From Bacteroidota bacterium (GTDB lineage Bacteria > Bacteroidota > Bacteroidia > Bacteroidales > VadinHA17): DNA of 43,314 bases. Position 1 is the stretch's first letter. Every line of letters starts with the position of its first letter. The position numbers and the translations under genes were made by a program. The stretch spans positions 1 through 43,314 of the forward strand of contig JANXXP010000146.1 in the NCBI GenBank assembly GCA_025350595.1, given 5' to 3'. Positions 9,264 to 25,349 of this stretch are shown one piece after another. Under the pieces are notes generated by a model that was not told the origin of the DNA, did not search any database, and was given only the letters and a program-made list of their open reading frames with translations.

Positions 9264-9305
9264 TCTTAGCCTTAACCTTAGCCTCAACCTCAGCCTTAAC
9301 CTAAA
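9264..9305. repeat. Imperfect hexanucleotide tandem repeat (CCTTAA/CCTTAG/CCTCAA)
   Basis: About seven 6-base units of the form CCTYAR stand head to tail in the gap between the convergent NUDIX and SpoIIE genes. The last unit contains the stop codon of the leftward gene. No hairpin is formed. Length polymorphism by slippage is expected. Confidence 0.75.
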
Positions 9306-10485
9306 TGTATTCGAAGGTGACTTTCTTCAGCCATTTTTCTTCAAGCAGACGGGCAATGCGTTTTACAACGGTCCTTCTTATTTCGAGATCAACCGGAAGG
9401 TTTGGATCCTGATGTGCGATATTTATCCTGGTGCCAATAACAAAGTGAATTTCATCACTTTCCATGATAAGCCTGACAATCTTATCTGCCGGCCCTTTTC
9501 CAAGTTTGACACTGTTATTATATGTCTTAAGGATTTCATTTACTTTTTGGAGAGTCAGGATTCCTTCTGTAACCAGGTCAATTCCTTCCAGGAAACTCTC
9601 CGGCGGTAGTTCCGGGTCTTCAAAGATCAGTTCATCAACTATGGCTCTACCCAATTCCCGGGCAACTATATCAGCCGTAGTCCCGCCACAAAGAATCACT
9701 TTTCCTTTATAATTGAGGACTTTTACTGATAAATCTTTGTCTTTGTCTTTTTCGTAAGGAGGACCGGTACAGATCAGTAATTTTCGGGGTTCCCTGAAAT
9801 AGATTGTTGCACAGCTGATATCGTCGCGGGCTTTATAACTATCATTTTTATGAGCCATTGTGACGATCTTCCCGGCAAGCATCATAGCTGAAATGGAGGC
9901 TTCACTTGTAACCAGGGAAGCAGCGTAAGTTGCAATATTTTCTCTTTCCCAGCCAAACGGAAATGCGTCACCACCCATCCCACTCTGTGAAACTCCGTCG
10001 GAGCAAAAGATTATCCTGTCTTCTTTCTCAGGCACAAACGTGCAGTTTTTAAGCACTTTACCTGCATGTTTACCTTTGTCCAGAACAACTTTTTTCCAGT
10101 TGGGATCAAATATCTGATTCCCTCTCAGAACAATTGTCGATGGATTGTCATATTCAAGAATTGTAGCACGTCCGCTGCTCTCAATATCGATTATTGTAAA
10201 TGTCGAATAGCTTATTTTTCTTTCACTGCAAACCGGAAGGGTATTCATAATTATTTCTGCGATACGATCGACCTCTTTATGCTCGCGGGTAAAATTAAGA
10301 GCCATTGTTGCTGTGAGAGTTGCGAGGATATTTGCTTTTACACCATGACCCATTCCATCTGATAATACTGCTATAACCCTGTTCTCCTCTTTTATGGACC
10401 TGTACAGGAACACATCCCCGCAGATCCTCTCTCCGTCGTAGTTTCTTTGCTGGCTGTTTATCTCTATGAAAAAGTTCCTGTTCAC
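9301..10485 (-). CDS. SpoIIE-family phosphatase of the hydrogenase locus
   Basis: The frame is open from 10629, but upstream of 10502 it lies inside the end of the hydrogenase gene. The likely start is GTG 10485 (or TTG 10488), just after the upstream stop, giving about 394 residues beginning VNRNFFIEINSQQRN. The PP2C/SpoIIE domain shows ERICGDVFL, AVLSDGMGHGVKA, IFCSDGVSQ and ARDDISCATIYF, all metal ligands retained. A C-terminal extension of about 150 residues follows, with VILCGGTTADIVAREL and LLEEKWLKKV. Genes of this kind accompany PAS-containing sensory [FeFe]-hydrogenases, so it is the probable output of the upstream HydS-like protein, dephosphorylating an unknown target. The genes are adjacent, 16 bases apart, on the same strand. 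Confidence 0.88.
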   Translation of the reverse strand: MNRNFFIEINSQQRNYDGERICGDVFLYRSIKEENRVIAVLSDGMGHGVKANILATLTATMALNFTREHKEVDRIAEIIMNTLPVCSERKISYSTFTIIDIESSGRATILEYDNPSTIVLRGNQIFDPNWKKVVLDKGKHAGKVLKNCTFVPEKEDRIIFCSDGVSQSGMGGDAFPFGWERENIATYAASLVTSEASISAMMLAGKIVTMAHKNDSYKARDDISCATIYFREPRKLLICTGPPYEKDKDKDLSVKVLNYKGKVILCGGTTADIVARELGRAIVDELIFEDPELPPESFLEGIDLVTEGILTLQKVNEILKTYNNSVKLGKGPADKIVRLIMESDEIHFVIGTRINIAHQDPNLPVDLEIRRTVVKRIARLLEEKWLKKVTFEYI

Positions 10486-10501
10486 CAATTTCTGTTTCTG
10501 A

Positions 10502-12379
10502 TTATTTTCTTTGAGTATTTTTCTTTGTCTTATATGATTCAATAATCGAGTTGAGCATCTGTTCAGTTTCTGATGCCCCTTCGCCAAGCAGGAATCCGAT
10601 CTTTTGTACCATCTCAAGGTTTTTATCAATTACTTCACTCACCCTGTTAGTAACCTCTTCACCCTGCACTTCAGGGGAGTAAAGATCGCGGATTATTGCT
10701 CCGCACATCTTGTTCTTTTTGATCGGGAAAATTGAAATATTCAGCAACTTATCTTCAAAGTGCACATCCTTGCTTACTACAGGTTCATCTTCTTTAATAA
10801 CAAAGGTGAACATATTATAAACATTAAATGGGATAAGTGTTTTAATGTCAGCGCCTGCCAATCCGGGTATTACATCGGAAATGGCTTTGGCATCTTCACC
10901 TATTATGTTTATAAAGCTTTGATTTGAATGAAGTATCTTAAGATAATTATCAACAATTACCACCCCGGTGGGAAGTTTTTCAAGCATGTTATTCATCATG
11001 TCTGAAGCGCTCTGGGCAATCTCTTTTTCTCTCATAGCCAGCTCTTCCGAGTCTTTCAAAGCTTTTTTGGTTTCAGCCAGTTTCCTGTTTGTATGTCTGA
11101 GAGTTTCTATGTATTCCTGTTTATTACGAAGGTTGAAAGTGTGGCACATTTCGGGAACGGCAAGTCCTTTAGCGACAGTAGATGCGAATTCACGGCATGA
11201 CAGGTATCCGCAGGCTCCGCAGTTTATCTCTTCATCAGGATTGTTCTTCCCGATAATTTTAAGAACCTCATTTATAGCTTCTTCAGGGGGATCTGGAATT
11301 CTCTGGTCGTTAGGGGAAAAGGTCCTTGAAAGTTTAAGTTTCGACCATTTTTCCATGTCTTTCTGCCAACCAGCCTTATCAAGTACCCCGACTTTCTTCT
11401 CAGCATAGTGCCTCACCAATGACCTTCTTCTAAATCTCTCGTTGTGATGTTCCATGGCTGGTCCGAGTAAACAACCATGACAGAAGAATAAGTTGAAATG
11501 ATGCTGTATAGTGTCGATGTACTTGTCGAAATCATTTATTGCCTCAAGTATTTCTTCTTTGCCTGAGGCTGTTATAACACTGCTGGAAACCATGTCGCGC
11601 TTTATTCCTCCAGCCTGAATGATCCCTGCAGGAAGAGGGTAAAGGGCTCCCCAGTTTCCATGAGGAGGATCGAAATCCGACAATTTTACCAGTCGCTCCT
11701 GTATCTTAAATTCATCAAAAAGCTGTCTTAGTTCAATAAAAGTGAGAACCCCATCAACAAGTTTGCCTGAATTATAAATCAAGGCTTCATCTTTTGCGTC
11801 GAGACAGGGACCTATTAACACCGTAGCCACATCTTCGCCATATAACTCTTTTACAACCATTGCTGTGGCTATCATGGGAGATACCAGTGGAGCCAGGTTT
11901 GGTACAAGTTCCGGATGAAATTTTTCGATAAGCTTAACTATTGCCGGGCAATTTGCTGTTATCAGGTACTTCCCTTCAGCTTTGGAGAAAAGTTTTGCAT
12001 AAGCTGCTGCTACTAGATCTACCCCGAAAGATACCTCATGAACATAATCAAAACCCAACGATCTGATCATAGCCACGAATTTCCTATAGTCGGTTATATC
12101 ATCAAACTCCGAGGCAATACTTGGCTCGATAAGTGCTGCGGTCTTCCTTGGAGATGATAACAGGAATTTGACTTCTTCCCTTGAATCACGGAATTCTATC
12201 GCATGTGGTGTGCATGACACGAAGCATAATCCACAGCCTATGCATCTGTCGGGAAGAATAAAGGGATGCTCCTTTTGGGGTTTAACCTCAATGGCGTTGA
12301 CAGGGCAGACCCTAACGCAGGAATATGAATTTCTGCATTTATCATCATTTATATAAAGAACAGGTTTTCTGACTGACAT
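10502..12379 (-). CDS. hydS: Sensory-type [FeFe]-hydrogenase-like protein with C-terminal PAS domain
   Basis: 625 residues. Domain order: two ferredoxin-type clusters (14-57), an H-cluster domain (about 80-330), a Fe-S motif NCGACGYLSC (387-395) with Cys412, a coiled coil (420-465), then PAS (about 470-580). The first ferredoxin motif has only three of four cysteines (second is Ser18). H-cluster motifs are altered: TANCP has Asn143 before ligand Cys144; GPCLDAK has Cys192 with its Lys one place late; the third motif is FCHGC, so Cys300-Cys303 are one residue closer than the canonical C-x3-C. This architecture matches group C sensory hydrogenases, thought to report H2 or redox state rather than turn over H2 quickly. 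The downstream phosphatase is the likely output. Whether a full H-cluster can assemble is open. Confidence 0.9.
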   Translation of the reverse strand: MSVRKPVLYINDDKCRNSYSCVRVCPVNAIEVKPQKEHPFILPDRCIGCGLCFVSCTPHAIEFRDSREEVKFLLSSPRKTAALIEPSIASEFDDITDYRKFVAMIRSLGFDYVHEVSFGVDLVAAAYAKLFSKAEGKYLITANCPAIVKLIEKFHPELVPNLAPLVSPMIATAMVVKELYGEDVATVLIGPCLDAKDEALIYNSGKLVDGVLTFIELRQLFDEFKIQERLVKLSDFDPPHGNWGALYPLPAGIIQAGGIKRDMVSSSVITASGKEEILEAINDFDKYIDTIQHHFNLFFCHGCLLGPAMEHHNERFRRRSLVRHYAEKKVGVLDKAGWQKDMEKWSKLKLSRTFSPNDQRIPDPPEEAINEVLKIIGKNNPDEEINCGACGYLSCREFASTVAKGLAVPEMCHTFNLRNKQEYIETLRHTNRKLAETKKALKDSEELAMREKEIAQSASDMMNNMLEKLPTGVVIVDNYLKILHSNQSFINIIGEDAKAISDVIPGLAGADIKTLIPFNVYNMFTFVIKEDEPVVSKDVHFEDKLLNISIFPIKKNKMCGAIIRDLYSPEVQGEEVTNRVSEVIDKNLEMVQKIGFLLGEGASETEQMLNSIIESYKTKKNTQRK

Positions 12380-12490: not shown

Positions 12491-12548
12491 TTCTGATATT
12501 TATTCTGTTATTGTTGTGGAGACGCACAATGGTGCATCTTTACTATTA
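12491..12548. repeat. 58-base direct repeat, copy 2, with degraded palindrome
   Basis: Copy 2 starts 81 bases after copy 1 and matches it except for a few changes, all in the second half of the palindrome and just beyond. The palindrome here is therefore imperfect (arms 12520-12539). It ends at the stop codon of the ferredoxin gene, suggesting local duplication. Confidence 0.85.
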
Positions 12549-12800
12549 TGCCAACCGGGCGAACTCCTTTTCGAGGATAGTTTCAATTTTCGTAATTGTT
12601 ACTCCTTCAATTGTTACTCCGTTTATGTTGAGATTTGGCCCATTACTGCAATGACCCATACAGCGGGCTCCTTTAAAAATGACTTTGTCGTCGAGGTGAT
12701 TCTTCCGAAGATATTCCCTGATAAACATTACAACATCTTTGTTACCCCTTGAAAAGCAGGAACTGCCAAGACAAATTTGCATTTCAATTCTCTGAGCCAT
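12546..12800 (-). CDS. Thioredoxin-like [2Fe-2S] ferredoxin (NuoE C-domain type)
   Basis: An 84-residue protein consisting of only the thioredoxin-fold [2Fe-2S] domain found at the end of NuoE/HydC/HndA. The four ligands are in ICLGSSC (C-x4-C) and RCMGHC (C-x3-C), followed by SNGPNLNING. It is a small electron carrier, probably passing electrons between the HydABC-type complex and the sensory hydrogenase or another partner. It is the first gene of the leftward operon and diverges from hydC across a 179-base gap with a Rex-like operator, so it may share redox control with the hydABC operon. Confidence 0.88.
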   Translation of the reverse strand: MAQRIEMQICLGSSCFSRGNKDVVMFIREYLRKNHLDDKVIFKGARCMGHCSNGPNLNINGVTIEGVTITKIETILEKEFARLA

Positions 12801-12979: not shown

Positions 12980-13450
12980 ATGGGCACGGAACTCGACATA
13001 ATTCTGAAAAAATACAAGCAGGGAAAAAGGGAGGATCTTATTCCTCTTCTTCAGGATATTCAGGAAGATCTGGGTTATCTTTCGGAAGAAGCTATCGTTA
13101 AAGTGGGTAGCTTTTTAGGATTAAGCACTACAAAAATTTATGGACTGGCCACATTTTACGACAGATTCCACTTTATTCCTTCAGGAAAGATTCAGATCAG
13201 GATATGCAATGGTACATCATGTTTCCTAAATGGATCGCTGACCATAATTAACAAAATTAAAGAAGAAACAGGTGTAAATGCCGGACAAACAACCAGGGAT
13301 GGTAATTTTAGCTATGAGATTGTATCATGTATGGGAGGGTGTCATAATGGACCTTTGTTAAATGTAAACGGTAAGTATCACACTCACGTTAAAGCAGAAC
13401 AATTGCCTGAACTTATTAAAAAACTGAAGTATATAATTGAAAACGACTAA
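12980..13450 (+). CDS. hydC: HydC/NuoE-type [2Fe-2S] subunit of a NAD(H)-linked hydrogenase complex
   Basis: 156 residues, the normal length for NuoE-like subunits. An N-terminal helical bundle contains LIPLLQDIQEDLGYLS and KIYGLATFYDRFHF. The C-terminal thioredoxin-fold has the four cluster cysteines in ICNGTSC (C-x4-C) and SCMGGC (C-x3-C) followed by HNGPLLNVNG. It passes electrons within the HydABC complex next to the flavin subunit. It heads the operon hydC-hydB-hydA-sensor kinase, with 18 bases to hydB. The ATG at 12980 gives MGTELDIILKKYKQG, the typical start. All ligands present, so a working subunit is expected. Confidence 0.92.
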   Translation: MGTELDIILKKYKQGKREDLIPLLQDIQEDLGYLSEEAIVKVGSFLGLSTTKIYGLATFYDRFHFIPSGKIQIRICNGTSCFLNGSLTIINKIKEETGVNAGQTTRDGNFSYEIVSCMGGCHNGPLLNVNGKYHTHVKAEQLPELIKKLKYIIEND

Positions 13451-13468
13451 TACTGTAATATATCACCG

Positions 13469-15403
13469 ATGGAAGACTTAAAGACCTTCCTTATAGATAA
13501 AATTCTGTTGTATGAATCCGACGCATTGCCGACGGAATCAGAAAAAATATTGCAACAGATCAGACGTGAGAAGCCGGTGAACCCTATTATCTATGTGTCA
13601 TCAGGGACCAGTAGTATAATTGCCGGATCAGAAAAAACATTGTCTGCAATTGAAACCTATATATCCGAGAATTCTCCACTTGTCGAGGTAATAAATGTAG
13701 GATGCAACGGACCCGCTAATTTTGAACCGTTGGTGTGCTTTCACATCCCGGGCAAGAATAAACTTTTTTTTAGAAATATAACAGAGGAAAAAGTTGAGCC
13801 TCTTCTTAACGGTGTTTTTCATAATGATATAAATGAAGATGATCTGGCAGGTCAGACAGGTACCAAAGGTTTTGAACTCTGGCCAGGGATCCCTTTTATT
13901 GATGAGCTCCCATTTTTTGCCCTTCAAAAGAGAGTTGTTCTGGGAAATTGCGGATGTTATGATCCGGAAAGCATAGAAGAATATATAGCCCGAGGAGGGT
14001 ATCGTGCTTATATTAAAGCTATCAGGCATTATACATATGAAGAGGTTTGCGATGTAATTGAGAGAAGTGGTCTTCGTGGAAGAAGCGGTGGCGGATACCC
14101 AACAGGACTAAAGTGGAAACATGCTTTAAATACTACTTCAAACGCCAGATATCTTATATGCAATGCCAAAGAGAGTGATCCGGGAGCCTTTACCGACAGA
14201 ACAATTCTTGAAAGTGATCCTCATCGCCTAATTGAAGGTATTGCAATTGCGTCATACGCTATCGGAGCATCGAATGCTATTGTATTTATGCGCTCAGGTT
14301 CAGAGCATGCTCAGAACAGACTTCAGAAAGCAATTGACAGGGCACGGGAATATGGTTTATTCGGACATAATATTTACTCGAGTGGCTACAATCTCGATAT
14401 AGTTATCAGAAAAGAACCCGGAGCATTTGTCTGTGGCGAAGAGACAGCCCTGATCAACACTCTTGAAGGAAAAAGAGGAATGCCCCAGCTTAAACCTCCT
14501 TACCCTACAACATCAGGATTATTTGGTAAACCAACAGTCATTAACAATGTCGAGACTCTGATAAATGTTCCACTGATAATGCAGAATGGTCCTGAATGGT
14601 TCAGGTCAATGGGTACCGAGAAAAGTCCGGGAACGAAGGTATTTGCAGTAGCAGGAAAAGGCCGTATGTCGGGTGTGGTGGAGATTGAAATGGGTACAAC
14701 AATCAGAACAGTCCTTGAAGATATTGCTGATGGAATACACGAGGGAAAAGAGTTTAAAGCTATTCAGCTTGGAGGATCTTCAGGCTCTTTCCTGACTAAA
14801 GATGATCTTGATATTGCAATAGATTATGAAACTCTCAGGGAAAAAGGTATCGGAATGGGAGCTGGGGGATTCGTTATTATCGATGAGAACACCTGTATGG
14901 TTGATCTCGTAAGGTATTATATGGAATTCATCAGGAACGAAAGTTGCGGAAAATGTATCCCATGCCGCGAGGGAACAGGAAGAATGCTTGAGATACTTGA
15001 AAGTGTAATAAGAAAACCATTAAATGAAGACTCGGGTACTACACTCGAAAGATTTAAGGGTGTGATGCAGCTGGAGACGATAGCTTCAGTTATGAAAGAT
15101 ACGTCACTTTGCGGCCTAGGACAGACGGCGCCTAATCCTTTTATAAGCGCTCTTAAAAATTTCAGGGATGAATTTGAAGAACATATTTTTGACAGAAAAT
15201 GCCGTGCGAACATTTGCCGTGGGTTAAGATCATTTTCCATAGATGTTGATAAGTGCACCGGGTGCACTGCCTGTGCTTCAAAATGCCCGGTAAATGCAAT
15301 CTATGGTACACGTTTACAGCCATTTTTTATTGTTGAGGAAAAATGTATTGGTTGCGGTATCTGTTTCGATATATGTAAATTCAGTGCAATTAATGTTAAA
15401 TAG
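13469..15403 (+). CDS. hydB: HydB/NuoF-type flavin and NAD-binding subunit
   Basis: 644 residues. Order: N-terminal thioredoxin-like domain (about 35-110), NuoF core with FMN site RGRSGGGYPTG (203-213), the NAD-site loop CNAKESDPGAF (231-241), SCGKCIPC for a [4Fe-4S] cluster, and a C-terminal pair of ferredoxin clusters (KCTGCTACASKCP, KCIGCGICFDIC). It moves electrons between NAD(H) and the complex and is the presumed bifurcation site in HydABC enzymes. Two oddities: the N-terminal domain has lost three of its four [2Fe-2S] ligands (Ser44, Ser49 and Ala83; Cys79 kept), and the NAD loop has Lys234 where NADE or GDEG is usual, with the following Glu235 kept. It is 5 bases from hydA. Confidence 0.93.
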   Translation: MEDLKTFLIDKILLYESDALPTESEKILQQIRREKPVNPIIYVSSGTSSIIAGSEKTLSAIETYISENSPLVEVINVGCNGPANFEPLVCFHIPGKNKLFFRNITEEKVEPLLNGVFHNDINEDDLAGQTGTKGFELWPGIPFIDELPFFALQKRVVLGNCGCYDPESIEEYIARGGYRAYIKAIRHYTYEEVCDVIERSGLRGRSGGGYPTGLKWKHALNTTSNARYLICNAKESDPGAFTDRTILESDPHRLIEGIAIASYAIGASNAIVFMRSGSEHAQNRLQKAIDRAREYGLFGHNIYSSGYNLDIVIRKEPGAFVCGEETALINTLEGKRGMPQLKPPYPTTSGLFGKPTVINNVETLINVPLIMQNGPEWFRSMGTEKSPGTKVFAVAGKGRMSGVVEIEMGTTIRTVLEDIADGIHEGKEFKAIQLGGSSGSFLTKDDLDIAIDYETLREKGIGMGAGGFVIIDENTCMVDLVRYYMEFIRNESCGKCIPCREGTGRMLEILESVIRKPLNEDSGTTLERFKGVMQLETIASVMKDTSLCGLGQTAPNPFISALKNFRDEFEEHIFDRKCRANICRGLRSFSIDVDKCTGCTACASKCPVNAIYGTRLQPFFIVEEKCIGCGICFDICKFSAINVK

Positions 15404-15408
15404 GCTAT

Positions 15409-17130
15409 ATGCTTTTTACAATACAGGTAAATAATAAGAAGATCAAAGCTGAAAAGGGTGAAACGATCCTTTCTGCTCTTAACCGCAACGGGATTATTAT
15501 ACCTACTCTGTGCAGGATGAAAGACTTCACACCAACAGGCGCCTGTCGTATGTGTGTGGTTGAAGTGGAAGGGCGCGATCGTTTGGTCACTGCCTGCTCA
15601 CAGCCGGTTGAAGAATGGATGAAGATTAAGACCCATTCTCCTCGAGTGATTCAGGCGAGGAAGACAATTGTAGAACTTCTGCTATCAAACCACCCCGACG
15701 ATTGTTTGTATTGCGACAGAAACCTTAATTGTGAATTACAGCGTCTTGCTGAAGAACTTAATATACGGGAGCGTCGAATTCGCGGTAAGAAAATTAGACC
15801 TCGTCTCGATCAGTCCAGTCCGGCTATTGTCAGAGAATTATCCAAATGTATCCTTTGCGGTAGATGTGTAAGGGTATGCGAAGAGGTCATTACATCTACC
15901 TCTCTGGATTTTATCAATAAGGGAAGAGAAACACATGTCGGGGCTGCCATGGACAGGGATTTCAACTTTTCAAGCTGTATTCATTGCGGACAATGCGTAC
16001 TGGTGTGCCCTACCGGTGCTCTTCACGAAAAACACTACATTTCAGAAGTTCAGGAGTATCTCCATAAAACTGAGATTGTAAAAGTCATTCAATATTCTTC
16101 AATGGTTGTCTATGGGATAGCCGAAGAACTTGGAATGAAGTACACCAGAGAATTTGATCAGATATTGAATGCCATCCTTCGTAAAATTGGCTTTGATAAA
16201 GTTTATAAAACAGGGACCGGAACCGATGTTTGTATAACGGAAATCGTTGGTCAACTTAACGAAAAAATTGAAAATAAGACTGATACACCATTATATATAT
16301 CGGCCTGTCCTGCATGGGTCAAGTATGCTGAACAGTTCATGCCTTCTCTTATCCCTTTCATGTCAACAGTAAAATCACCACAGCAAATTACAGGTGTATT
16401 GATAAAAACTCTTGTTGCCGGTCAGTTGGGTGTAAAACCTGAAGAAATATATTCTGTTTCAGCAACTCCGTGTATGGCTATGAAATTCGAAGCACGTCGA
16501 GACGGCATGATGCGTAAGGGGATTAGTGATGTTGATTCGGTACTTACTGTAAGAGAGCTTGCAAGGCTTATCAGACTGTATGGTATTGATACATCAAATG
16601 TTGAACATGAACCGGCTGATGAGCCTTTGGCTGGTAGAAGTTCCGCAGCTATACTTGCAGAAGTATCAGGAGGAATGGCTGAAGGTGTCATACGGTCATT
16701 TCATTTCCAGAAAATGAAAAAAGAGCCTGATAAACAGATATTCAAAAAGTTAAGAAATGGAGGTAATTTCAGAGAAACTACTGTCCCGATCGGAGAGACA
16801 GAGATGCGGGTTGCTGTTGTTGACGGACTAACAGGACTTGAAAAACTAAAAATTTCTCTTGCTTCAGGGAAAAAATATGACCTCATTGAAGTGATGACTT
16901 GTCCTGGTGGTTGTGTACATGGAGCTGGTCTGACTTTCAATACTTCCAAGGATGAGATAAAGTCGAGAGCTAAACTCGTATATCAGTCAGATGACACTGA
17001 AGCAATTAATCTGCCCTGTAAATCCGCCTCACTGATTAATCTGTATGATAAGCTTTTAAAGGAAAACAGCGATATTTCAGATAAGAAAATATTCTATACT
17101 CATTTTGAGAAAAGAAACGTATTATTATAA
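15409..17130 (+). CDS. hydA: HydA-type [FeFe]-hydrogenase large subunit with atypical active-site motifs
   Basis: 573 residues. N-terminal [2Fe-2S] (Cys35, 46, 49, 63), a His-Cys3 cluster (His95, Cys99, 102, 108) and two [4Fe-4S] clusters (147-157, 190-200) precede an H-cluster domain (about 225-530). The cluster ligands are kept: Cys300, Cys355, Cys498, Cys502. By alignment from memory to clostridial CpI, whose numbering happens to coincide up to residue 360, catalytic helpers are lost: motif 1 is ISACP (Ala299 for the proton-relay Cys), Ile279 and Gln282 replace both proton-path Glu, and motif 2 TPCMAMKFE has Thr353 and Met358 for the usual Met and Lys. Ser319 is kept. It should be the H2-facing subunit of HydABC, but normal turnover is doubtful. 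The sensor-kinase gene follows 18 bases later. Confidence 0.92.
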   Translation: MLFTIQVNNKKIKAEKGETILSALNRNGIIIPTLCRMKDFTPTGACRMCVVEVEGRDRLVTACSQPVEEWMKIKTHSPRVIQARKTIVELLLSNHPDDCLYCDRNLNCELQRLAEELNIRERRIRGKKIRPRLDQSSPAIVRELSKCILCGRCVRVCEEVITSTSLDFINKGRETHVGAAMDRDFNFSSCIHCGQCVLVCPTGALHEKHYISEVQEYLHKTEIVKVIQYSSMVVYGIAEELGMKYTREFDQILNAILRKIGFDKVYKTGTGTDVCITEIVGQLNEKIENKTDTPLYISACPAWVKYAEQFMPSLIPFMSTVKSPQQITGVLIKTLVAGQLGVKPEEIYSVSATPCMAMKFEARRDGMMRKGISDVDSVLTVRELARLIRLYGIDTSNVEHEPADEPLAGRSSAAILAEVSGGMAEGVIRSFHFQKMKKEPDKQIFKKLRNGGNFRETTVPIGETEMRVAVVDGLTGLEKLKISLASGKKYDLIEVMTCPGGCVHGAGLTFNTSKDEIKSRAKLVYQSDDTEAINLPCKSASLINLYDKLLKENSDISDKKIFYTHFEKRNVLL

Positions 17131-17148: not shown

Positions 17149-19110
17149 ATGCTGGTCTATACAATAAAGGAACTTTGCCGTACATGCTATACCTGCGTAA
17201 GGGAATGCCCTGCTAAAGCTATCCGTATTGTTGGTGGTCAGGCTGAGGTTATTGATGAAAGGTGCATTGCCTGCGGTAATTGCACCAAAGTATGTAGCCA
17301 GGGGGCAAAAGTATTTCTGAATACAACAGACAGAGTTGTAAAACTACTCGAAACAGATCAGAAGGTGGCTGCAATAATAGCTCCGAGTTTTCCTGCAGAA
17401 TTTTCTGATATTCCTGATCACCACGTTTTAACAGGAATGATAAAAGCCCTGGGTTTTGAATATGTTGCTGAGGTTTCTTTTGGCGCCGATTTGGTTGCTG
17501 ACAGATATAAAAAACTTGTATCGGAAAGTAAGAATTTTTATATCTCATCAGATTGTCCTTCGATTGTAAACTATATAAAATTTTATCATCCATCACTTGT
17601 TGACAGTCTTGCTCCGATTGTATCTCCAATGGTGGCTATGAGCAGGGTTGTCAGGGAAAAATATGGCAAGGATACACGTATAGTATTTATTGGCCCGTGC
17701 ATTGCCAAGAAAGCTGAGAGTACTGAAATAGATGAGGCTATAACTTTTACTGAATTAAGGGATATGCTGTCAGACAACGGCATAACTCCTGATAATTGTA
17801 TTCCGGTCGATTTTGATCAGCCTGTAGGTGGCAGAGGGGCTATTTTCCCCGTTGCCAGGGGATTGCTTCAGACGGCTAAGATAAGTGATAACGCGATTAC
17901 CGGTAATATTATTGCTGCTGAAGGGAGAATTGATTTTCAGGGGGCATTAAAGGAATTTGAGGCTGGTTTGATAAAGAACCAGCACATGGAATTATTATGC
18001 TGTGAAGGGTGTATTATGGGTCCTGGATTATCAAAAAACGGGAAGCAGTACAACAGGAGGTCTCTTGTTAGCTCTTATGCAAACAGTAAAATGCAGAATA
18101 TCGATTCTGACAGCTGGCAAAAATCATTTGAAGAATTTTCAGAACTTGATCTGTCATTCCGGCACCGGCATGAGGATCCTCTTATTGAGACTCTTGAGGA
18201 GGAGGATGTAAGGGATATCCTGATAAAGATGGGCAAGAAAACCAAAAAAGATCAACTCGATTGTGGCGCTTGTGGGTATGAAAGCTGTGTGGAACATGCA
18301 ATCGCTATAAAGAAGGGTCTTGCGGAAGTGGAAATGTGCCTTCCATATACAATTGAAAAGCTTCATAAATCTGTCAAGGAACTGGCTTTGTCGAATGAGA
18401 AACTTTCATCAATGAAACAAGCTCTGAAACAGTCAGAAAAGCTTGCTCACATGGGACAGCTTTCTGCCGGTATTGCACATGAGCTAAATAATCCACTGGG
18501 AGTAGTCATTATGTACAGTAATATCCTTTTGGAAGAAGCAAAAGCTGAAGATCCGGTAAGGGAAGACCTTAAACTGATAGTGGAGCAAGCAGGCAGATGT
18601 AAAAAAATCGTTGCCGGGTTACTTAATTTTGCCCGGAAGAACCAGGTAAATCATCAATTGGTTAGTATCAAGGATCTTGTTAATCATAGTCTTGAAAGTC
18701 TTATTATCCCTGAAAATGTAAAAATCAATATTGACGATCTGACTACCAGCGCGGAAGCAATGCTCGATTCTGAACAGATGACTCAGGTACTTACCAATCT
18801 GGTAAAGAATGCCATAGATGCAATGCCAACGGGTGGATCAATCAATATTAAACTGGAAGATACTCTTGGTGATGTTATCTTTACAATCACCGATACCGGA
18901 ACCGGGATCAAAGAAGAAGACAGGGCTAAGATCTTCGAACCATTCTTCACAACAAAAGGTATTGGACATGGAACAGGTCTTGGACTAGCGACTGCTTATG
19001 GTGTTGTAAAGATGCATAAAGGGCATATTACTGCCGAATCGAATAACGATCCGGCGAAAGGCCCAACTGGTACGAGCTTTAAGATTATGTTGCCCAGGAG
19101 GAAGGAGTGA
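17149..19110 (+). CDS. hydS: [FeFe]-hydrogenase-like sensor fused to a histidine kinase
   Basis: 653 residues. Two intact ferredoxin clusters (10-20, 39-49), an H-cluster domain (about 70-330), a Fe-S motif DCGACGYESC (371-380), a coiled coil (400-432), then HisKA with phospho-acceptor His444 in GIAHELNNP and HATPase_c with NLVKNAIDA, DTGTGI and GHGTGLGL. H-cluster motifs: SSDCP with Asp135 before ligand Cys136, GPCIAKK (Cys184, Lys187 in the usual place), and CCEGC (Cys284, Cys288). It is a paralogue of the PAS-type sensor at 10502 with a kinase in place of PAS. No membrane segment is seen, so it is a cytosolic kinase. H2 or cluster redox state would set autophosphorylation; the receiver gene at 19349 is the nearest partner. 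Confidence 0.92.
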   Translation: MLVYTIKELCRTCYTCVRECPAKAIRIVGGQAEVIDERCIACGNCTKVCSQGAKVFLNTTDRVVKLLETDQKVAAIIAPSFPAEFSDIPDHHVLTGMIKALGFEYVAEVSFGADLVADRYKKLVSESKNFYISSDCPSIVNYIKFYHPSLVDSLAPIVSPMVAMSRVVREKYGKDTRIVFIGPCIAKKAESTEIDEAITFTELRDMLSDNGITPDNCIPVDFDQPVGGRGAIFPVARGLLQTAKISDNAITGNIIAAEGRIDFQGALKEFEAGLIKNQHMELLCCEGCIMGPGLSKNGKQYNRRSLVSSYANSKMQNIDSDSWQKSFEEFSELDLSFRHRHEDPLIETLEEEDVRDILIKMGKKTKKDQLDCGACGYESCVEHAIAIKKGLAEVEMCLPYTIEKLHKSVKELALSNEKLSSMKQALKQSEKLAHMGQLSAGIAHELNNPLGVVIMYSNILLEEAKAEDPVREDLKLIVEQAGRCKKIVAGLLNFARKNQVNHQLVSIKDLVNHSLESLIIPENVKINIDDLTTSAEAMLDSEQMTQVLTNLVKNAIDAMPTGGSINIKLEDTLGDVIFTITDTGTGIKEEDRAKIFEPFFTTKGIGHGTGLGLATAYGVVKMHKGHITAESNNDPAKGPTGTSFKIMLPRRKE

Positions 19111-19348: not shown

Positions 19349-19744
19349 ATGAAGAAGAGTGATATTACGATTCTGGTAGCTGATGATGATCCTGATTATC
19401 TTTTCCAGACGGTTTTTAATCTTGAAAAAGCTGGATATAAGACCATGGCCGCAGAGAGCCAGGCAGAGGCGGAATCGGTAATTGCCAAATTCAAACCTAA
19501 CCTGGCAATATTTGATCTGATGATGGAGAGTGACGACAGTGGTTTTATCTTGTGCTACAAGATAAAGAGGAAATATCCTGATGTACCGGTAATACTTGCA
19601 ACTGCAGTATCGCACGAGACGGGTTTGTCGTTCAGTATTGATTCGGAACAGGAAAAATCGTGGATCAGAGCTGACCGGTATCTTGAAAAAGGTATCAGAC
19701 CGGAACAACTTGATCAGGAGGTTATGAAACTATTAAAACTTTAA
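19349..19744 (+). CDS. Single-domain response regulator (receiver only)
   Basis: 131 residues, a lone CheY-like receiver. The acidic pocket is VADDDPD, and the phospho-acceptor region is LAIFDLMMESDDSG with Asp in LAIFDLM. LATA supplies the conserved Thr and the C-terminal YLEKGIRPEQL supplies the Lys. There is no output domain, so it would act by protein contact or as a phosphorelay intermediate. It lies 1 base before the receiver-kinase gene and 238 bases after the hydrogenase-kinase fusion, which makes it the natural phosphate acceptor of that kinase. The partner assignment is inferred from position. Confidence 0.9.
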   Translation: MKKSDITILVADDDPDYLFQTVFNLEKAGYKTMAAESQAEAESVIAKFKPNLAIFDLMMESDDSGFILCYKIKRKYPDVPVILATAVSHETGLSFSIDSEQEKSWIRADRYLEKGIRPEQLDQEVMKLLKL

Positions 19745-19745
19745 C

Positions 19746-20882
19746 ATGGCTGTTCTAAAAGTACTTGTTATTGATGACGAACCAGGAATCCGTTCAGGTG
19801 TTTCTCGTATCCTGAATAACTTCCATGTTACGTATCCTTTTATGGATGAGGATTATACATTTGAAGTTACTGAAGCCGGAACTGGGGAGGATGGTATAGC
19901 TATTCTGGAACGCGACATGCCTGATATACTTTTGCTTGATAATAAGTTACCCGGAATTCAGGGGGTAGATGTTCTCGAATATATCAGAAAACGAAATTAC
20001 GATATTGTCGTAGCGATGATAACATCATATGCATCGCTGGATGTTGCAATCAGGGCTACCCGCGATGGCGCAATTGATTTCATCCCTAAGCCATTTACAC
20101 CACAAGAGCTTAAATCAAGTATCGAAAACATAACCAAACAGCAGTATCTTAAGAGGATAACTCATAAGATGAAGCAGGAAGGAAAAAAGATAAGATATCA
20201 GTTCCTCTCAGTCCTTTCCCATGAACTTAAGGCTCCTCTGAATGCACTTGAGGGTTATCTTCGTATGATGCAGGAAAAACAGGCAGGCGACAGGATTGAA
20301 GATTATGCTACTCCTATAGAAAGATCACTCCAGAGAATTCAGGGCATGAGGAGTCTTATAATGGATCTACTTGATTTTACAAAAATACGACTCGAAAGAA
20401 AAGAAGAGAAAATTCAGGAAGTAAACCTTACTGATGTAGCTAAAGATGCAATAGTTACAGTGCAGCCTTATGCTATTCAGATGGATGTTTCAATTAGTCT
20501 TGATATAAGGTCAGAAACTATAATAATGGCAGATCCTGATGATATGGAGATTGTTTTTAATAATCTCATCTCGAATGCAGTTAAGTATAATAAAGTTGGC
20601 GGGAAAGCAGAGATTACAATCGATAGTTCCGATAGTGAAGCAATTCTCATCTTTTCAGATTCAGGTATCGGTATAACAAAAAATGATACTGAAAATCTAT
20701 TTGAAGAGTTTGTGAGAATAAAAAATGAAAAGACCAGAAATATATCAGGGAGCGGACTTGGGCTATCAATTGTCAAGAAAGTGGTTGCACTTTATCATGG
20801 GACAATAAATGTTGAAAGTACCCCTGATGTAGGTACAGTATTTACTATCAGATTACCTAAGAAACCAATAACAATAACCTGA
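19746..20882 (+). CDS. Receiver-histidine kinase hybrid (REC-HisKA-HATPase)
   Basis: 378 residues. An N-terminal receiver (1-125) has VIDDEPG, phospho-acceptor Asp in LLLDNKLPG, ITSYAS and the Lys in FIPKPFTPQEL. A HisKA domain follows with SVLSHELKAPLNALEGYL, then HATPase_c with NNLISNAVKYN, FSDSGIGI and GSGLGLSIVKKV. It has no membrane segments or sensor domain, so its input is probably phosphorylation of its own receiver by an upstream kinase, making it a relay stage. It has no C-terminal receiver. The genes run receiver, hybrid, rex with tiny gaps (1 and 5 bases), which implies co-transcription and coupling of the relay to NADH-sensing repression. Confidence 0.92.
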   Translation: MAVLKVLVIDDEPGIRSGVSRILNNFHVTYPFMDEDYTFEVTEAGTGEDGIAILERDMPDILLLDNKLPGIQGVDVLEYIRKRNYDIVVAMITSYASLDVAIRATRDGAIDFIPKPFTPQELKSSIENITKQQYLKRITHKMKQEGKKIRYQFLSVLSHELKAPLNALEGYLRMMQEKQAGDRIEDYATPIERSLQRIQGMRSLIMDLLDFTKIRLERKEEKIQEVNLTDVAKDAIVTVQPYAIQMDVSISLDIRSETIIMADPDDMEIVFNNLISNAVKYNKVGGKAEITIDSSDSEAILIFSDSGIGITKNDTENLFEEFVRIKNEKTRNISGSGLGLSIVKKVVALYHGTINVESTPDVGTVFTIRLPKKPITIT

Positions 20883-20887
20883 ATAAG

Positions 20888-21514
20888 ATGACTAGATTAC
20901 CAGGAAAAACCGTTGAAAGGCTTAGCGAGTACAGAAGAACCCTTCTTGAATGCCTTATTGAGAAAAAAAGCTTTATATTCTCTCACGATCTTGCTGCCCG
21001 GCTTCATATTACTGCTGTTCAGGTCAGACGCGATTTAATGCTTATTGGCTATTCGAGCGTTTTAAGGAAAGGGTACGATGTCAGGGAACTGATTGATACT
21101 ATCGGAAAGATTATTGACTCTGAAGAAAGTATGAATGTTGCGGTAATCGGAATTGGGAACCTTGGGCGTGCGGTGGCAGGCTATTTTAAGGGAAAGCGTT
21201 CAAAACTTAGCCTTGTGGCTTCGTTCGACAATGATCCTCAAAAGGTAAATAAAGTTATTTCTGGTGTTAAATGCTATCCTTATAGTGAGATTGAAAGGGT
21301 AGTCAAAGAGTTGGATATAAAAATTGCAATACTTACGGTTCCACCGGATTTTGCCAGGGAGATTTCAGAAGAAACAGTCCGCTTCGGGATAAAAGGAATT
21401 TTAAACTTTACAACTATACCTTTAAATGTCCCTTCAGGAGTACATCTGGAAGAATATGATATGATAACCTCAATAGAAAAGGTTGCATATTTTGTGAAGG
21501 ATAATAAAATATAG
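20888..21514 (+). CDS. rex: Rex redox-sensing transcriptional repressor
   Basis: 208 residues, standard length. The N-terminal winged helix has ITAVQVRRDLMLIGYS, the recognition-helix signature of Rex, with KGYDV beyond it. The Rossmann fold follows with VAVIGIGNLGRAV and an Asp at the end of strand 2 (SFDNDPQ), as for NADH preference. The C-terminal domain-swapped helix is EKVAYFVKDN. Rex releases DNA when NADH/NAD+ rises, switching on NADH-consuming fermentation genes. Predicted operators lie upstream of hydC (12897) and of its own operon (19271), with a weaker one before the hydG operon (24140). Operators were judged by eye. Confidence 0.93.
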   Translation: MTRLPGKTVERLSEYRRTLLECLIEKKSFIFSHDLAARLHITAVQVRRDLMLIGYSSVLRKGYDVRELIDTIGKIIDSEESMNVAVIGIGNLGRAVAGYFKGKRSKLSLVASFDNDPQKVNKVISGVKCYPYSEIERVVKELDIKIAILTVPPDFAREISEETVRFGIKGILNFTTIPLNVPSGVHLEEYDMITSIEKVAYFVKDNKI

Positions 21515-21529: not shown

Positions 21530-22450
21530 ATGAATATCTACAGGAGCTTTGAAGATGCAAAGGGTATAAGAAATCCTGTTGTAACCACAGGGTCGTTCGA
21601 CGGGGTACATATCGGACATAAAACAATACTAAATCGTCTTAAGATGCTGGCTGCCAAACACGATGGCGAGTCGGTACTAATTACATTCGACCCTCACCCC
21701 AGGAAAGTATTATATCCTGAAACTGCTGGTAAAGATCTTAAACTCATTAATTCGCAGGAGGAAAAGCTGCAACTTCTCGAGAAAGCTGGTCTCAACAATG
21801 TAATAATTATTGAATTTACCAAAGAGTTCTCAACTGTAACAAGTGAACAATTTGTAAGAGACTTTCTTCATGGTCTGTTACATGCAAAGGTAGTGGTTGC
21901 AGGATTTAACCATCATTTCGGGTTTAATAAAGAGGGTGATTATAAACAACTTTGGGAATGGCAGGGGAAATATAATTTTGAAGCTGAAGAGATTCCGGAA
22001 CAGGAGGTTCAGCATGAGACTGTTAGTTCTACCAAGATACGTCAGGCAATTGGCGAAGGGTATATTCAAAGGGCAAATGCCTATCTGGATCATTACTATA
22101 TTATTATTGGTAAGCCTGAATCATATATCTTTGAAATGAATTCTGAATTGCCTCCTCTTGTAAGAATATCACTCACTGAAGAATGTAAGTTGCTTCCTTC
22201 GCCAGGGATCTATGCCGTATCAGTCGAAAACGGAATTGTTCATTCTAAAGGTATGGTGATAATCCACAAGAAACCTGAAGAAAAATCTGAAGTTCTGCTG
22301 AATATTTTTGATAATATCACTTTTCCGGCCAGCGAAAAAGTAACTCTATATTTTCATAAGAAGATTCATGGTGCTGTTAATCTTTCTGATAGCAAAACCA
22401 TCTTTAAAATAAACCTTGCCAAAGAAGAAATTTCAGATCTTATTTACTAA
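21530..22450 (+). CDS. RibF-like FAD synthetase with degenerate riboflavin kinase domain
   Basis: 306 residues, normal RibF length. The N-terminal FMN adenylyltransferase half is well conserved: VTTGSFDGVHIGHKTIL, LITFDPHPRKVL, GFNHHFGFNKEGD and VSSTKIRQAIGEG. The C-terminal half lacks the riboflavin kinase hallmarks: no GFPTANL after HYYIIIGK and no NIGxRPTF. It keeps only LLPSPGIYAV. It probably makes FAD from FMN or is a diverged paralogue, and a second, canonical ribF would be expected elsewhere. It lies 15 bases after rex and overlaps hydG tail-to-tail by 4 bases. A flavin-supply gene in this locus fits the flavin subunit HydB. Confidence 0.85.
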   Translation: MNIYRSFEDAKGIRNPVVTTGSFDGVHIGHKTILNRLKMLAAKHDGESVLITFDPHPRKVLYPETAGKDLKLINSQEEKLQLLEKAGLNNVIIIEFTKEFSTVTSEQFVRDFLHGLLHAKVVVAGFNHHFGFNKEGDYKQLWEWQGKYNFEAEEIPEQEVQHETVSSTKIRQAIGEGYIQRANAYLDHYYIIIGKPESYIFEMNSELPPLVRISLTEECKLLPSPGIYAVSVENGIVHSKGMVIIHKKPEEKSEVLLNIFDNITFPASEKVTLYFHKKIHGAVNLSDSKTIFKINLAKEEISDLIY

Positions 22451-23853
22451 AAATAAATATCCCGTTGTCCTTCCTGAATGGTCATGAGGTTCCCGGATAT
22501 TTTGCTCTTAAGGTTTTTATTTTCAACCTCACTTACAAGTTTATTTATTAGAGCAAATCCTTTTGCCATGGTTTCAGGAGAAGCAAAGTCTTCCAGATAT
22601 TCCTTGAAAGTGAACAGAGCATTTGGCATACAATACTCCTTAATAAGGCCCGGTTTGGCGAGGTCCATAAAATCCTGTCCGACTCTTCCTTTTCGGTAGC
22701 AGCCTGTGCAAAATGAAGGTATATAACCTCCATCGGCAAGAGAAGATATTACCTCATCCAGAGTTCTGTGGTCGCCTAAAGTAAACTGACTTCCAGACTG
22801 TTCTTCTTCATGGGAATATGATCCGGGGTTAGTACGCGAGCCTGCTGAAACCTGACTTATCCCATAATCGCATAATTCATTTCGCATGACATCGTTCTCA
22901 CGAGTGCTCAGGATAATGCCTGTATAAGGTAATGCGATACGTATTATAGCTACTATTTTCTTAAAATCATTATCGCTTACCTTAGACGGAATATTTTCAG
23001 AATGGGGTGCACCTACTGCATACTCAATACGAGGGACACTCACTGTATGAGGGCCGCAGCCAAACGCTCTTTCAAGGTGATGAGCATGTTCCATCATTGC
23101 CAGAACCTCAAAGCGATAGTCAACCAGACCAAGAAGCGCACCAATACCTATATCATCAACACCGCCCTCCATGGCTCGGTCCATCACTGTAAGTCGATAC
23201 TCATAGTCACCTTTTTTTGTGTTGCCAGGATGAAACTCCTTGTATAATAATGGGTCGTAAGTCTCCTGAAAACAGACGTAAGTTCCGATTTTTTCAGCTT
23301 TCAGTTTTGCGAAGTCTTCAACTTCCATAGGTGCCAGCTCCACGTTAATACGGCGAACGTAATCACGTCCTCCATGCTCTTTTACAGAATAAGTCGTGCG
23401 TATAGCCTCCACCATATAGTCGGTGTCGTTTCGTTTACTTTCACCACAGATAAGAAGGACGCGTTTATGGCCTTCCTGCAGAAGAGAACGAGTCTCATCC
23501 GCGATCTCCTCCATAGTAAGAACCTTACGTTTAATAAGTTTATTATCAGACCTGAACGAGCAGTAAGTGCAATTATTAATACAGGCATTCCCAGTATAAA
23601 TAGGTGCGAAGATAACCAGTCGCCTTCCATAAATTTCTTCTTTTACCGTGTGAGCGGTTTCCATAATTTTATGAATAACCAATGGATCCTGTACACGTAG
23701 AAGCGAAGCTACATCCTCCAGATTTAAACCTTTAAGCTTTAATGCTTTGTTAAGGATGGTGTTTGTCTCACTTTCTGAAGGAGTCTTACCCTCTATCAGT
23801 GAATATAATTTATCCCTGTCAATAAATACTTTATTCCGTTCGCTCTTGTTCAT
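22447..23853 (-). CDS. hydG: HydG, [FeFe]-hydrogenase maturase (tyrosine lyase, radical SAM)
   Basis: 468 residues from the ATG at 23853, which reads MNKSERNKVF. The frame is open 48 bases further upstream, but that part overlaps the regulator gene and is not preceded by a ribosome site, whereas GGAGG lies just before 23853. The radical SAM motif is CINNCTYC (C-x3-C-x2-C) in the context TGNACINNCTYCSFRSDN. The HydG-specific C-terminal auxiliary-cluster region has FCTGCYRKGRVG and a following EYC (C-x2-C then a distal Cys). HydG cleaves tyrosine to give the CO and CN ligands of the H-cluster diiron site. It overlaps the TM1266-like gene by 23 bases and ribF at its tail by 4. Confidence 0.95.
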   Translation of the reverse strand: MNKSERNKVFIDRDKLYSLIEGKTPSESETNTILNKALKLKGLNLEDVASLLRVQDPLVIHKIMETAHTVKEEIYGRRLVIFAPIYTGNACINNCTYCSFRSDNKLIKRKVLTMEEIADETRSLLQEGHKRVLLICGESKRNDTDYMVEAIRTTYSVKEHGGRDYVRRINVELAPMEVEDFAKLKAEKIGTYVCFQETYDPLLYKEFHPGNTKKGDYEYRLTVMDRAMEGGVDDIGIGALLGLVDYRFEVLAMMEHAHHLERAFGCGPHTVSVPRIEYAVGAPHSENIPSKVSDNDFKKIVAIIRIALPYTGIILSTRENDVMRNELCDYGISQVSAGSRTNPGSYSHEEEQSGSQFTLGDHRTLDEVISSLADGGYIPSFCTGCYRKGRVGQDFMDLAKPGLIKEYCMPNALFTFKEYLEDFASPETMAKGFALINKLVSEVENKNLKSKISGNLMTIQEGQRDIYF

Positions 23854-24112
23854 TATTTTGCTCCTCCTTGTATTTTGTAAGAATAGATTTAACTTCAACA
23901 TCCTTTAAACGTCCAATCTTACCGGTAAGAGCACTGATTGTTTCGATCGTACCTTCGATAACAAGAGAAATTACATTTATATTCCGATGATGCAGAGGCA
24001 GTCCCTGGCGGGCGAGAATAATATCACCGTATTCAGATAGTAAGGTGTTTACAAGCGGAACAGCGGTTTTGCCTATTATTAAGATCGTAATTGTGCCAAT
24101 TCTCTTTTCCAT
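23831..24112 (-). CDS. TM1266-like iron-only hydrogenase system regulator
   Basis: 93 residues, matching the small family that is almost always beside [FeFe]-hydrogenase maturase genes. It has the ferredoxin-like ACT/NikR-type fold signature: KRIGTITILI, YGDIILARQGLPL, NVISLVIEGTIETISALTGKIGRL and GRLKDVEVKSIL. Its exact role is unknown; it is assumed to regulate hydrogenase assembly or genes. It is translationally coupled to hydG by a 23-base overlap and starts 152 bases downstream of the convergently oriented hydE coding end. A weak Rex-like site (24140-24157) lies just upstream. Confidence 0.88.
   Translation of the reverse strand: MEKRIGTITILIIGKTAVPLVNTLLSEYGDIILARQGLPLHHRNINVISLVIEGTIETISALTGKIGRLKDVEVKSILTKYKEEQNNEQERTE
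23861..23869 (-). promoter_or_regulatory. Strong Shine-Dalgarno that fixes the hydG start
   Basis: On the minus strand this reads AAGGAGGAG, 7 bases before ATG 23853, inside the end of the regulator gene. Bacteroidota often lack such strong sites, so it supports the shorter hydG start over the longer frame. Confidence 0.7.
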
Positions 24113-24263: not shown

Positions 24264-25349
24264 CTACTGCCTTCTGCCTTCATAGTGCTTCGAATCGCCC
24301 CATTCCCCATAAACGACCTCGGCATCAGCAAGACTTACCCTGGCTTCAAGACAACTCTGGCAATCTTCAGCTGAGTCATCAGTACAGGGTTTATTATCGT
24401 AAAGCTTATAGCTGTCTCGGTATTTACCGGGAGTTATGTTGGGCATTAGGATATTGGCTCCTATTTTAACTGCTTTTTCTCTTCCTATCGGATCGATTGC
24501 CTGGAGCGCTGTTGCGGCGACAATATTGATATCCTTCATCATTATTCTGATTAATGCTATCATCTTAAGGGTAAGATCAAATCTGTCTTTAAGAGGCATT
24601 AGGTTTCCGGCATGTTCTATTAGTGGGGTGTCGGCATGTTCAATGTACGGCCCCATACCGCACATGTCGATATTGAATTCTTTCATAAACAGCAAATCGC
24701 CGGCAAGATCATCCATTGTCTGAAAGGGGAGTCCTATCATTACACCTGTACCTGTTTGGTATCCAATATCCTGCAAGCTCTTAAGGCAGGCAAGTCTTTT
24801 ATTGAAATCATGATTGGAATCGTTTGGATGGATCTTTTGATACAGTGATTGATTTGTTGACTCAACACGTAAAAGATAACGGTGAGCTCCTGCATCGTAC
24901 CATTTTTTATATGTCGTCGGTTTCTGTTCACCTACTGACAATGTAACTCCCAATTCACCATTTGATAATTCCTTAATCTTGTGAAGAAGATTCTCTATTC
25001 TGTCTGTAATAAACTGACTTTCAAGTTCTCCTGATTGAAGAGCAATAGATCCATACCTGTTGGTATATGCAAATTTTGCAGCTGCAAGGATCTCATCATC
25101 TGACAGATTATATCGATTCAGATTTTTATTGCCCTTCCTGATTCCGCAATAGAGACAATCCTTTCCACAAATATTTGAGAACTCAATCAATCCCCTGAAC
25201 CAGACCTTATTCCCGATATATTTTTCTTTGATCTCAGCAGATTTTTTGAATAAAAGAGTGCGGTCTTCACTTTCAGATTCAAGAAGTGAGATTATATTAC
25301 TTTTCGAGAACTCGTCTTTTTCGAGTATATCTTTGATATTCAATTCCAT
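24264..25349 (-). CDS. hydE: HydE, [FeFe]-hydrogenase maturase (radical SAM)
   Basis: 361 residues. The radical SAM motif CGKDCLYCGIRKGN (C-x3-C-x2-C) lies near residue 60, followed by the HydE signature GSIALQSGEL, TLSVGEQ and GTGVMIGLPFQT. The C-terminal tail DDSAEDCQSCL holds extra cysteines seen in part of the family. HydE acts with HydG and HydF on the diiron subcluster of the H-cluster; HydF is absent from this window. It is on the same strand as hydG, separated by 151 bases, and lies 45 bases after the C69 peptidase gene. The sequence is full-length and its motifs intact. Confidence 0.94.
   Translation of the reverse strand: MELNIKDILEKDEFSKSNIISLLESESEDRTLLFKKSAEIKEKYIGNKVWFRGLIEFSNICGKDCLYCGIRKGNKNLNRYNLSDDEILAAAKFAYTNRYGSIALQSGELESQFITDRIENLLHKIKELSNGELGVTLSVGEQKPTTYKKWYDAGAHRYLLRVESTNQSLYQKIHPNDSNHDFNKRLACLKSLQDIGYQTGTGVMIGLPFQTMDDLAGDLLFMKEFNIDMCGMGPYIEHADTPLIEHAGNLMPLKDRFDLTLKMIALIRIMMKDINIVAATALQAIDPIGREKAVKIGANILMPNITPGKYRDSYKLYDNKPCTDDSAEDCQSCLEARVSLADAEVVYGEWGDSKHYEGRRQ

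Follow-up and report, generated by a model that had tools for sequence, protein, structure and literature searches.

A HydABC-type hydrogenase of the Bacteroidales with a remodelled H-cluster pocket and a possible sensory function

We identified, in a 43,314-nucleotide stretch of a Bacteroidota genome (hereafter the window; contig JANXXP010000146.1), a HydABC-type hydrogenase whose large subunit, HydA, carries a remodelled H-cluster pocket. Judged from its sequence, the complex is a HydABC descendant that lacks the motifs, and falls short of the scores, expected of a working HydABC, and we give an even chance to the interpretation that it is a canonical, probably bifurcating, HydABC hydrogenase turned into a regulatory module that senses H2 and redox state. 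A fuller version, held more tentatively, is that the whole NADH- and ferredoxin-wired HydABC became the sensor, with a pocket that converged on those of groups C and D, a gained E418 relay and a rebuilt flavin site, and that it reports H2 and redox state to hydrogenase-domain kinases. If this is true, H2 sensing would have arisen here by a path separate from that of the HydS families, with intermediates alive in the Bacteroidales. By its domains the remodelled HydA resembles the H2-producing HydABC enzymes, yet it is without the residues needed, and the hydrogenase counts given for Bacteroidales genomes may be one too high. No report of a HydABC variant with a remodelled pocket was found in the open-access hydrogenase literature; related cassettes with canonical HydABC are already in print (PMC11406978).

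Architecture and pocket residues of the remodelled HydA

The gene is an open reading frame of 573 residues (Table 1). Its product has the domain set of HydABC, with a 2Fe-2S domain, a His/Cys 4Fe-4S site, two sets of 4Fe-4S ligands and the hydrogenase domain; its accessory Fe-S ligands are intact and hydB and hydC adjoin it on the same strand, as in HydABC-type (group A3/M3) hydrogenases. The closest solved relatives by sequence are the HydA chains of T. kivui, A. woodii and T. maritima.

Alignment to CpI and T. kivui HydA identified I279, Q282, K286, A299, T353 and M358 where CpI has E, E, R, C, M and K, respectively; the numbering of the protein itself coincides with that of CpI at the positions checked up to 418. 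S319, M497 and the cysteines C300, C355, C499 and C503 are kept, in agreement with the preliminary description of this DNA, which had counted all four H-cluster cysteines as present. Its list of altered residues (Ile279, Gln282, Ala299, Thr353 and Met358, with Ser319 kept) was right but short, as A230S, P231S, S232M, T356M, F417A and G418E have also occurred. The protein has ISACPAW in place of the P1 motif TSC[CS]PxW, TPCMAMK in place of the P2 motif MPCxAKK, and I279 and Q282 in the Glu/Cys proton path, and scores below the curated NCBIfam cut-offs for both FeFe_hydrog_A6 (559.9 versus 765 bits) and TIGR02512 (337.7 versus 406 bits).

An AlphaFold2 model built with 31 family members is confident across the H-domain (84-96 in 10-residue blocks from residue 211 to 500) and falls below 50 at residues 127-199. 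Solved structures that match the model include CbA5H, with Z 49.2 (rmsd 2.9 across 397), CpI, with Z of about 48 (rmsd 7-8 across some 500), and the three HydABC chains, with Z 44-46 (rmsd 7-8 across some 480-520); the fold is therefore predicted to be intact.

Table 1. Positions of the remodelled HydA, its altered codons and the neighbouring genes in the window
Feature	Position	Strand	Evidence or remarks
SpoIIE-type phosphatase (start codon uncertain)	9301..10629	-	PF07228; conserved context
HydS_PAS (name coined here): ferredoxin, hydrogenase-like domain, FeS domain, weak PAS-like region	10502..12379	-	
84-aa thioredoxin-like 2Fe-2S protein, first gene of divergent arm	12546..12800	-	PF01257; conserved context
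HydC (thioredoxin-like 2Fe-2S)	12980..13450	+	four Cys kept
HydB-like subunit	13469..15403	+	altered: N-terminal Cys, FMN loop (S206), NADH motif (K234); kept: remaining Fe-S ligands, C-terminal H/C/C
HydA, HydABC-type large subunit with remodelled H-cluster pocket	15409..17130	+	573 aa; Fe_hyd_lg_C PF02906 220 bits; AF2 model matches CpI/HydABC structures
Codons I279 to Q282 (CpI proton-path Glu279, Glu282)	16243..16254	+	alignment
Codons A299 and C300 (loss of proton-relay Cys; cubane Cys retained)	16303..16308	+	alignment
Codons 353-358, T-P-C-M-A-M (M353T, C355 kept, K358M)	16465..16482	+	alignment
Codons A417 and E418 (F417A; new acid beside 2Fe site)	16657..16662	+	alignment
HydS_HK (name coined here): hydrogenase-like domain fused to histidine kinase	17149..19110	+	GPCIAKK Lys kept
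Response regulator receiver	19349..19744	+	PF00072
Receiver and histidine kinase	19746..20882	+	PF00072, PF00512, PF02518
Rex redox (NADH/NAD+) repressor	20888..21514	+	NF003995 193 bits, cut-off 126
RibF-like FAD synthetase/riboflavin kinase	21530..22450	+	PF06574
HydG maturase	22447..23901	-	TIGR03955 494 bits, cut-off 312
TM1266-family hydrogenase system regulator	23831..24112	-	TIGR03959, above cut-off
HydE maturase	24264..25349	-	TIGR03956 355 bits, cut-off 255

Conservation and a graded series of pockets

Intact orthologues, with 60-100% identity, were found in 24 of 25 genomes of the genus (the window's included). The residue identities that the preliminary description had proposed to tabulate within the clade proved uniform, with A299, M358 and T or S353 in 24/24 genus orthologues, and in the trees described below the non-canonical proteins form one clade. 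Values of dN/dS to near relatives were 0.017-0.033 in four of seven pairs (dS being saturated in all, and the ratio incomputable in three), which points to purifying selection on the gene. It is scarcely credible that the gene is decaying, or that errors of assembly or sequencing in a MAG account for its residues: the window does come from a fragmented genome of 396 contigs, and HydA is split into two ORFs, perhaps by assembly frameshifts, in two relatives (L112 and L132), but the reading frame is intact, the same states recur throughout the genus, the computable dN/dS values are low and the H-domain model is confident. Many independent assemblies with the same residues refute sequencing error and pseudogene status, and the recurrence of the changes across relatives rules out a sporadic loss in one genome.

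Beyond the genus, a scan of named genomes yielded 110 relatives, of which 80 were kept; all 80 titles are of Bacteroidota of some rank, mostly Bacteroidales, and the identities are 48-91%. In an order-wide sample, 134 of 393 genomes contained a match (E <= 1e-125), and HydA was read in 93 of these (30 loci, 60 regions, and genomes G031, G034 and G037). Taking loci of >2,500 bases and matches aligned over >350 residues, and merging identical proteins, gave 174 unique sequences, from which eight canonical paralogues of <38% identity were dropped to leave 166. We defined as canonical those that have all seven residues at 279, 282, 299, 319, 353, 358 and 417. A sample from elsewhere in the phylum contained a match in 18 of 295 other genomes, all 18 canonical at these seven positions, and no relative was found in the viral contigs searched.

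Among the 166 related HydA sequences, 43 are canonical, and the other 123 lack one or more of the seven residues. The latter form a graded series: 29 intermediates have lost E279 and retain C299, M353 and K358; in a further 30, residue 299 is D, S, N, H, R or A, or 353/358 have changed; and 64 have A299 and M358 together, a group defined by those two residues, so that the independent statement of their co-occurrence is the 24/24 in the genus. E279 is retained in only 3/123 non-canonical proteins (L214, L279 and L282), all within the group of 30. In contrast to the pocket, the wiring is largely fixed. Cubane cysteines 300 and 355 are present in 166/166 sequences and 499 and 503 in all 164 that are readable there, and the accessory ligands are kept in every readable relative, one His excepted. 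S319 is retained in 152/166, Q325 in 162/166 and M497 in 161/164. The family thus offers a natural series from a canonical to a fully changed pocket, with which to identify the residues that bind the [2Fe] unit or conduct protons, and to trace the conversion of an enzyme into a sensor.

One non-canonical clade with repeated change

With 31 pocket columns removed from the alignment, 24/24 non-canonical representatives resolve into one clade (bootstrap 100, SH-aLRT 99) that contains no canonical sequence and nests among 14 canonical representatives, with the outgroups at the root. A larger tree, built with 19 pocket columns removed, likewise places 54/54 non-canonical rows in one clade (SH-aLRT 97), with no canonical sequence inside. 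The window's protein belongs to a clade of 16, of which 14 have A299/M358 and two H299/A358.

Within the 54 non-canonical rows, a minimum of 30 changes is required at position 279, 17 at 299, 13 at 353, 12 at 358 and 26 at 417. Total branch lengths are 7.4 for the 23 canonical and 24.9 for the 54 non-canonical rows of this tree, the canonical rows having zero change at the seven positions by construction. No other of the 96 H-domain sites that are invariant in canonical rows has changed as often as E279, and a comparison of 12 chosen pocket sites with the 84 others gave p = 0.001, for a site list partly drawn up after the data had been seen. Pocket sites have changed many times while the cubane and the wiring of HydA stayed fixed; in this clade, therefore, selection on catalysis was lifted or redirected.

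The proton route and the fate of the 2Fe unit

Mutants of CpI and CrHydA1 provide a measure of what these changes might cost (PMC6226526). E279A/Q leaves <1% activity, E282Q 0.4-8%, and C299A no significant measured activity, C299D being only mildly affected; thus, the canonical proton route is closed in the remodelled HydA. The preliminary description had concluded that the site cannot shuttle protons in the usual way. This stands, but a dead site does not follow, as the sensory hydrogenases TmHydS (A131) and TamHydS (A137) have Ala at the position of 299 and are active, though slow, by other routes (PMC10055695, PMC10407848), and the window's protein has a new acid at 418.

This acid is found in 63/63 readable A299/M358 proteins. 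Across the 164 readable sequences, an acid at 418 or 423 accompanies Cys299 in 0/76, Asp299 in 2/11 and any other residue at 299 in 68/77; the trait requires at least five changes on the larger tree, and most of the 68 derive from one gain. The pattern suggests a continuing role for proton chemistry at the site and so counts against a simple remnant with only the cubane, and the retention of S319, Q325 and M497 in most relatives leaves room for catalysis.

Two alternatives to the sensor interpretation bear on these residues. We consider it unlikely that the complex has stayed a metabolic hydrogenase of low rate or altered bias (for example towards uptake), with a new proton route via E418. Such an enzyme would be in keeping with the activity of TmHydS and TamHydS, with the occurrence of Thr or Gly at 353 in active enzymes of altered bias (PMC10055695), with the invariant acid of the A299/M358 group and with the conserved S319, Q325 and M497; against it, E279, E282, C299, K358 and F417 are all gone in the window's HydA, and further evidence from paralogues and from HydB is given below.

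Also rather unlikely, in our estimation, is a complex without the [2Fe] unit that serves as a cubane-only electron relay, either as an NAD(P)H/ferredoxin oxidoreductase or as a donor to another protein. There is a precedent in the Nar1/IOP1 proteins, which keep the cubane of the hydrogenase fold, have no [2Fe] unit and function in Fe-S assembly. Lys358 touches the 2Fe unit in canonical enzymes. Phe417 also touches it (PMC5954619), and both have been lost in the window's protein while the cubane ligands are invariant. K358M, F417A and E418 might exclude the [2Fe] unit, and the NADH motif of HydB, rebuilt with a Lys, would suit such a relay. Nevertheless, the bridging Cys503 (164/164), M497 and Q325 have been kept, and the gain of a carboxylate where residue 299 was lost makes most sense if proton chemistry remains.

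Remodelling of HydB

The preliminary description had taken the accessory clusters and the HydB and HydC partners to be intact; this holds for the accessory ligands of HydA and for the four cysteines of HydC, but not for HydB. In the window, the N-terminal 2Fe-2S-like domain of HydB retains one of the three cysteines conserved in canonical relatives (S, C, A), GRSGG replaces GRGGG, NAKESDP replaces NADEGDP, and AFTDR replaces AFMDR. The Met of the last motif, which we matched by motif to residue 234 of T. maritima HydB, is one residue proposed to be diagnostic of bifurcating beta subunits (PMC7311640).

HydB in 38 canonical loci has the three N-terminal cysteines, NADEGDP and AFMDR in all 38 and GRGGG in 37. 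HydB partnered with A299/M358 HydA (n=57) never keeps more than one of the three cysteines, and has GRSGG in 57/57, NAKESDP in 55/57 and the Met in 0/57. In the 56 intermediate loci (27 + 29) all three cysteines are present in 38. The remaining Fe-S ligands and the H/C/C set are kept throughout, one truncated canonical entry excepted. The replacement of the flavin and NADH motifs, and that of the bifurcation-diagnostic Met in all 57, argue against a metabolic hydrogenase. In NuoF, a flip of the E95-S96 peptide governs NAD+ release (PMC6560083); by motif matching, the Lys of HydB would replace an Asp beside the position of this peptide.

The gene cassette and a putative sensory function

The HydABC genes stand beside a divergent arm, in which a SpoIIE phosphatase, HydS_PAS and the 84-aa 2Fe-2S protein are on one strand. 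On the other are HydC, HydB, HydA, HydS_HK, a receiver, a receiver-kinase, Rex and RibF, with hydG and hydE nearby in many genomes. The PAS match of HydS_PAS is weak (PAS_8, E=0.029, under cut-off).

We examined 109 HydA orthologues with at least 4.2 kb of upstream sequence. The divergent arm was present at 82 loci, 82/82 of which depart from canonical at one or more of the seven positions (in 81 cases at 279 or 299), and absent at 27, of which 25 are canonical and two, L260 and L268, lack E279. A Fisher test of this association (p = 1e-22) is invalid as it stands, since the tree shows about one event: the minimum is three changes for the arm and four for E279. Gain of the arm and loss of the pocket are thus close to one joint event, with too few independent pairs to test, and the argument therefore leans on the order of events and on the repeated change inside the clade. 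In L272, L273 and L282, canonical hydrogenase genes lie directly upstream of the arm, as does part of one in L250 and L252; where complete, these have the order hydB-hydA-hydC.

HydS_HK follows HydA at 36/39 canonical and 89/99 non-canonical loci with at least 2.5 kb downstream and, as it also follows canonical HydA, is not by itself a mark of a sensor. Its second-motif Lys is kept in 128/128 proteins read. The Lys358 equivalent of HydS_PAS is not Lys in 80/80 relatives read, and HydS_PAS may be losing its own cluster, as the third-motif Cys and the Lys358 equivalent would suggest; the first Cys of the third H-cluster motif has become N, D or K in 9/18 loci of one class (9/80 overall). At some loci, for example L074, L082, L170, L172 and L277, no HydS_HK was found after HydA, and the receiver and receiver-kinase still follow.

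The preliminary description had offered signal generation as one option, and the conserved sensor and two-component context favours it; this context and the convergence with HydS pockets together favour a sensor. Under the sensor interpretation, the active site of HydA would no longer serve bulk H2 turnover, and would hold the [4Fe-4S] cubane, probably together with a slow H-cluster that has been re-tuned and whose protons would move via the new carboxylate E418, as proposed for E252 of TamHydS. H2 would set the redox state of the site, as would NAD(H)/ferredoxin via HydB and HydC, and this state would be handed to HydS_HK and HydS_PAS by contact or electron transfer; these proteins would then set the outputs of kinase/receiver and SpoIIE, by which hydrogenase and redox genes would be controlled.

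Comparison with known hydrogenases and sensors

The remodelled complex shares with the HydABC structures of T. kivui, A. woodii and T. maritima (8a6t, 7q4v, 7p5h) the subunit set, the HydA accessory ligands, the cubane cysteines, the C-terminal clusters of HydB and the fold. It differs from them in the proton path, the P1 and P2 motifs, F417/G418, the N-terminal cysteines of HydB and the FMN and NADH motifs.

Sub-types IV and V of BfuABC(T), from Hydrogenedentota (PMC11406978), also have HydABC genes that adjoin a hydrogenase-like sensor (group C3, with a PAS or kinase domain). In contrast, their P1, P2 and P3 motifs are reported to be in general conserved, and the accessible part of that paper describes no loss of catalytic residues.

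The sensors TmHydS (group C) and TamHydS (group D) share Ala at 299 with the remodelled HydA (PMC10055695, PMC8163306, PMC10407848, PMC11803613). The TamHydS pocket has F279, K286 and S353 (PMC11803613) against I279, K286 and T353 here, with a hydrophobic 279, Lys286 and a hydroxyl at 353 in common, and a glutamate, E252, is its proposed alternative relay (PMC10407848), where the window's protein has E418. The positions are not the same: TamHydS 252 aligns with CpI 423, a match inferred from the statement that group A has a valine there (PMC10407848), and the window has M423, with E423 found in five relatives. TmHydS and TamHydS are single-chain sensors, while the remodelled HydA belongs to a HydABC complex. 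TamHydS lacks S319 and M497, both of which are kept here, and M358 and E418 are not described for either sensor in the available excerpts. The remodelled HydA has the usual marks of group C and D pockets, a non-Cys 299 and a non-Met 353; it is without the fusion of the H-domain to a C-terminal FeS domain (PF04060) and PAS or kinase domains that is found in these groups. Within the cassette, the FeS domain is present in both HydS_HK and HydS_PAS and the kinase domain in HydS_HK. The family is an independent set in which to study alternative proton routes in sensory [FeFe]-hydrogenases.

Finally, S. wolfei Hyd1ABC and S. aciditrophicus HydAB (PMC7311640), which are NADH-dependent and non-bifurcating, have a similar NADH-linked HydAB(C) architecture and beta-subunit differences near the NADH and FMN sites. 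Both are active hydrogenases; the window's HydB keeps its C-terminal clusters.

Canonical paralogues and H-cluster maturation

In 20 genomes with A299 proteins besides the window's, we examined one paralogue each, 20/20 canonical at 279, 282, 299, 353, 358 and 417, and two paralogues from the window's genome are canonical as well. The presence of canonical paralogues in every genome checked counts against a metabolic function of the remodelled complex. In 2/20 of these paralogues, and also in the canonical paralogues L001 (the same gene as L037) and L049, the residue at cubane position 300 is Ser (TSCSP), a feature shared with A. woodii HydA.

The maturases HydE and HydG, encoded in the window, are as a metabolic hydrogenase would need. 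HydF is found elsewhere in the window's genome, and the H-cluster can therefore be made. The window's genome contains a single HydG above cut-off. Two HydG lineages, about 42% identical, swap at the same site downstream of RibF (for example L050:16430-17878, L069, L092 and L125; 22447-23901 in the window), the lineage other than the window's being present in many relatives. Among the aligned rows, neither has lost the radical-SAM or the C-terminal cysteine motifs, and we rejected a special maturase for a different cofactor, as the maturase motifs persist and there was no sign of a new cofactor. The window's genome additionally contains a sixth, more distant hydrogenase-domain protein, in a 467-residue frame (G000:C197:2772-3422).
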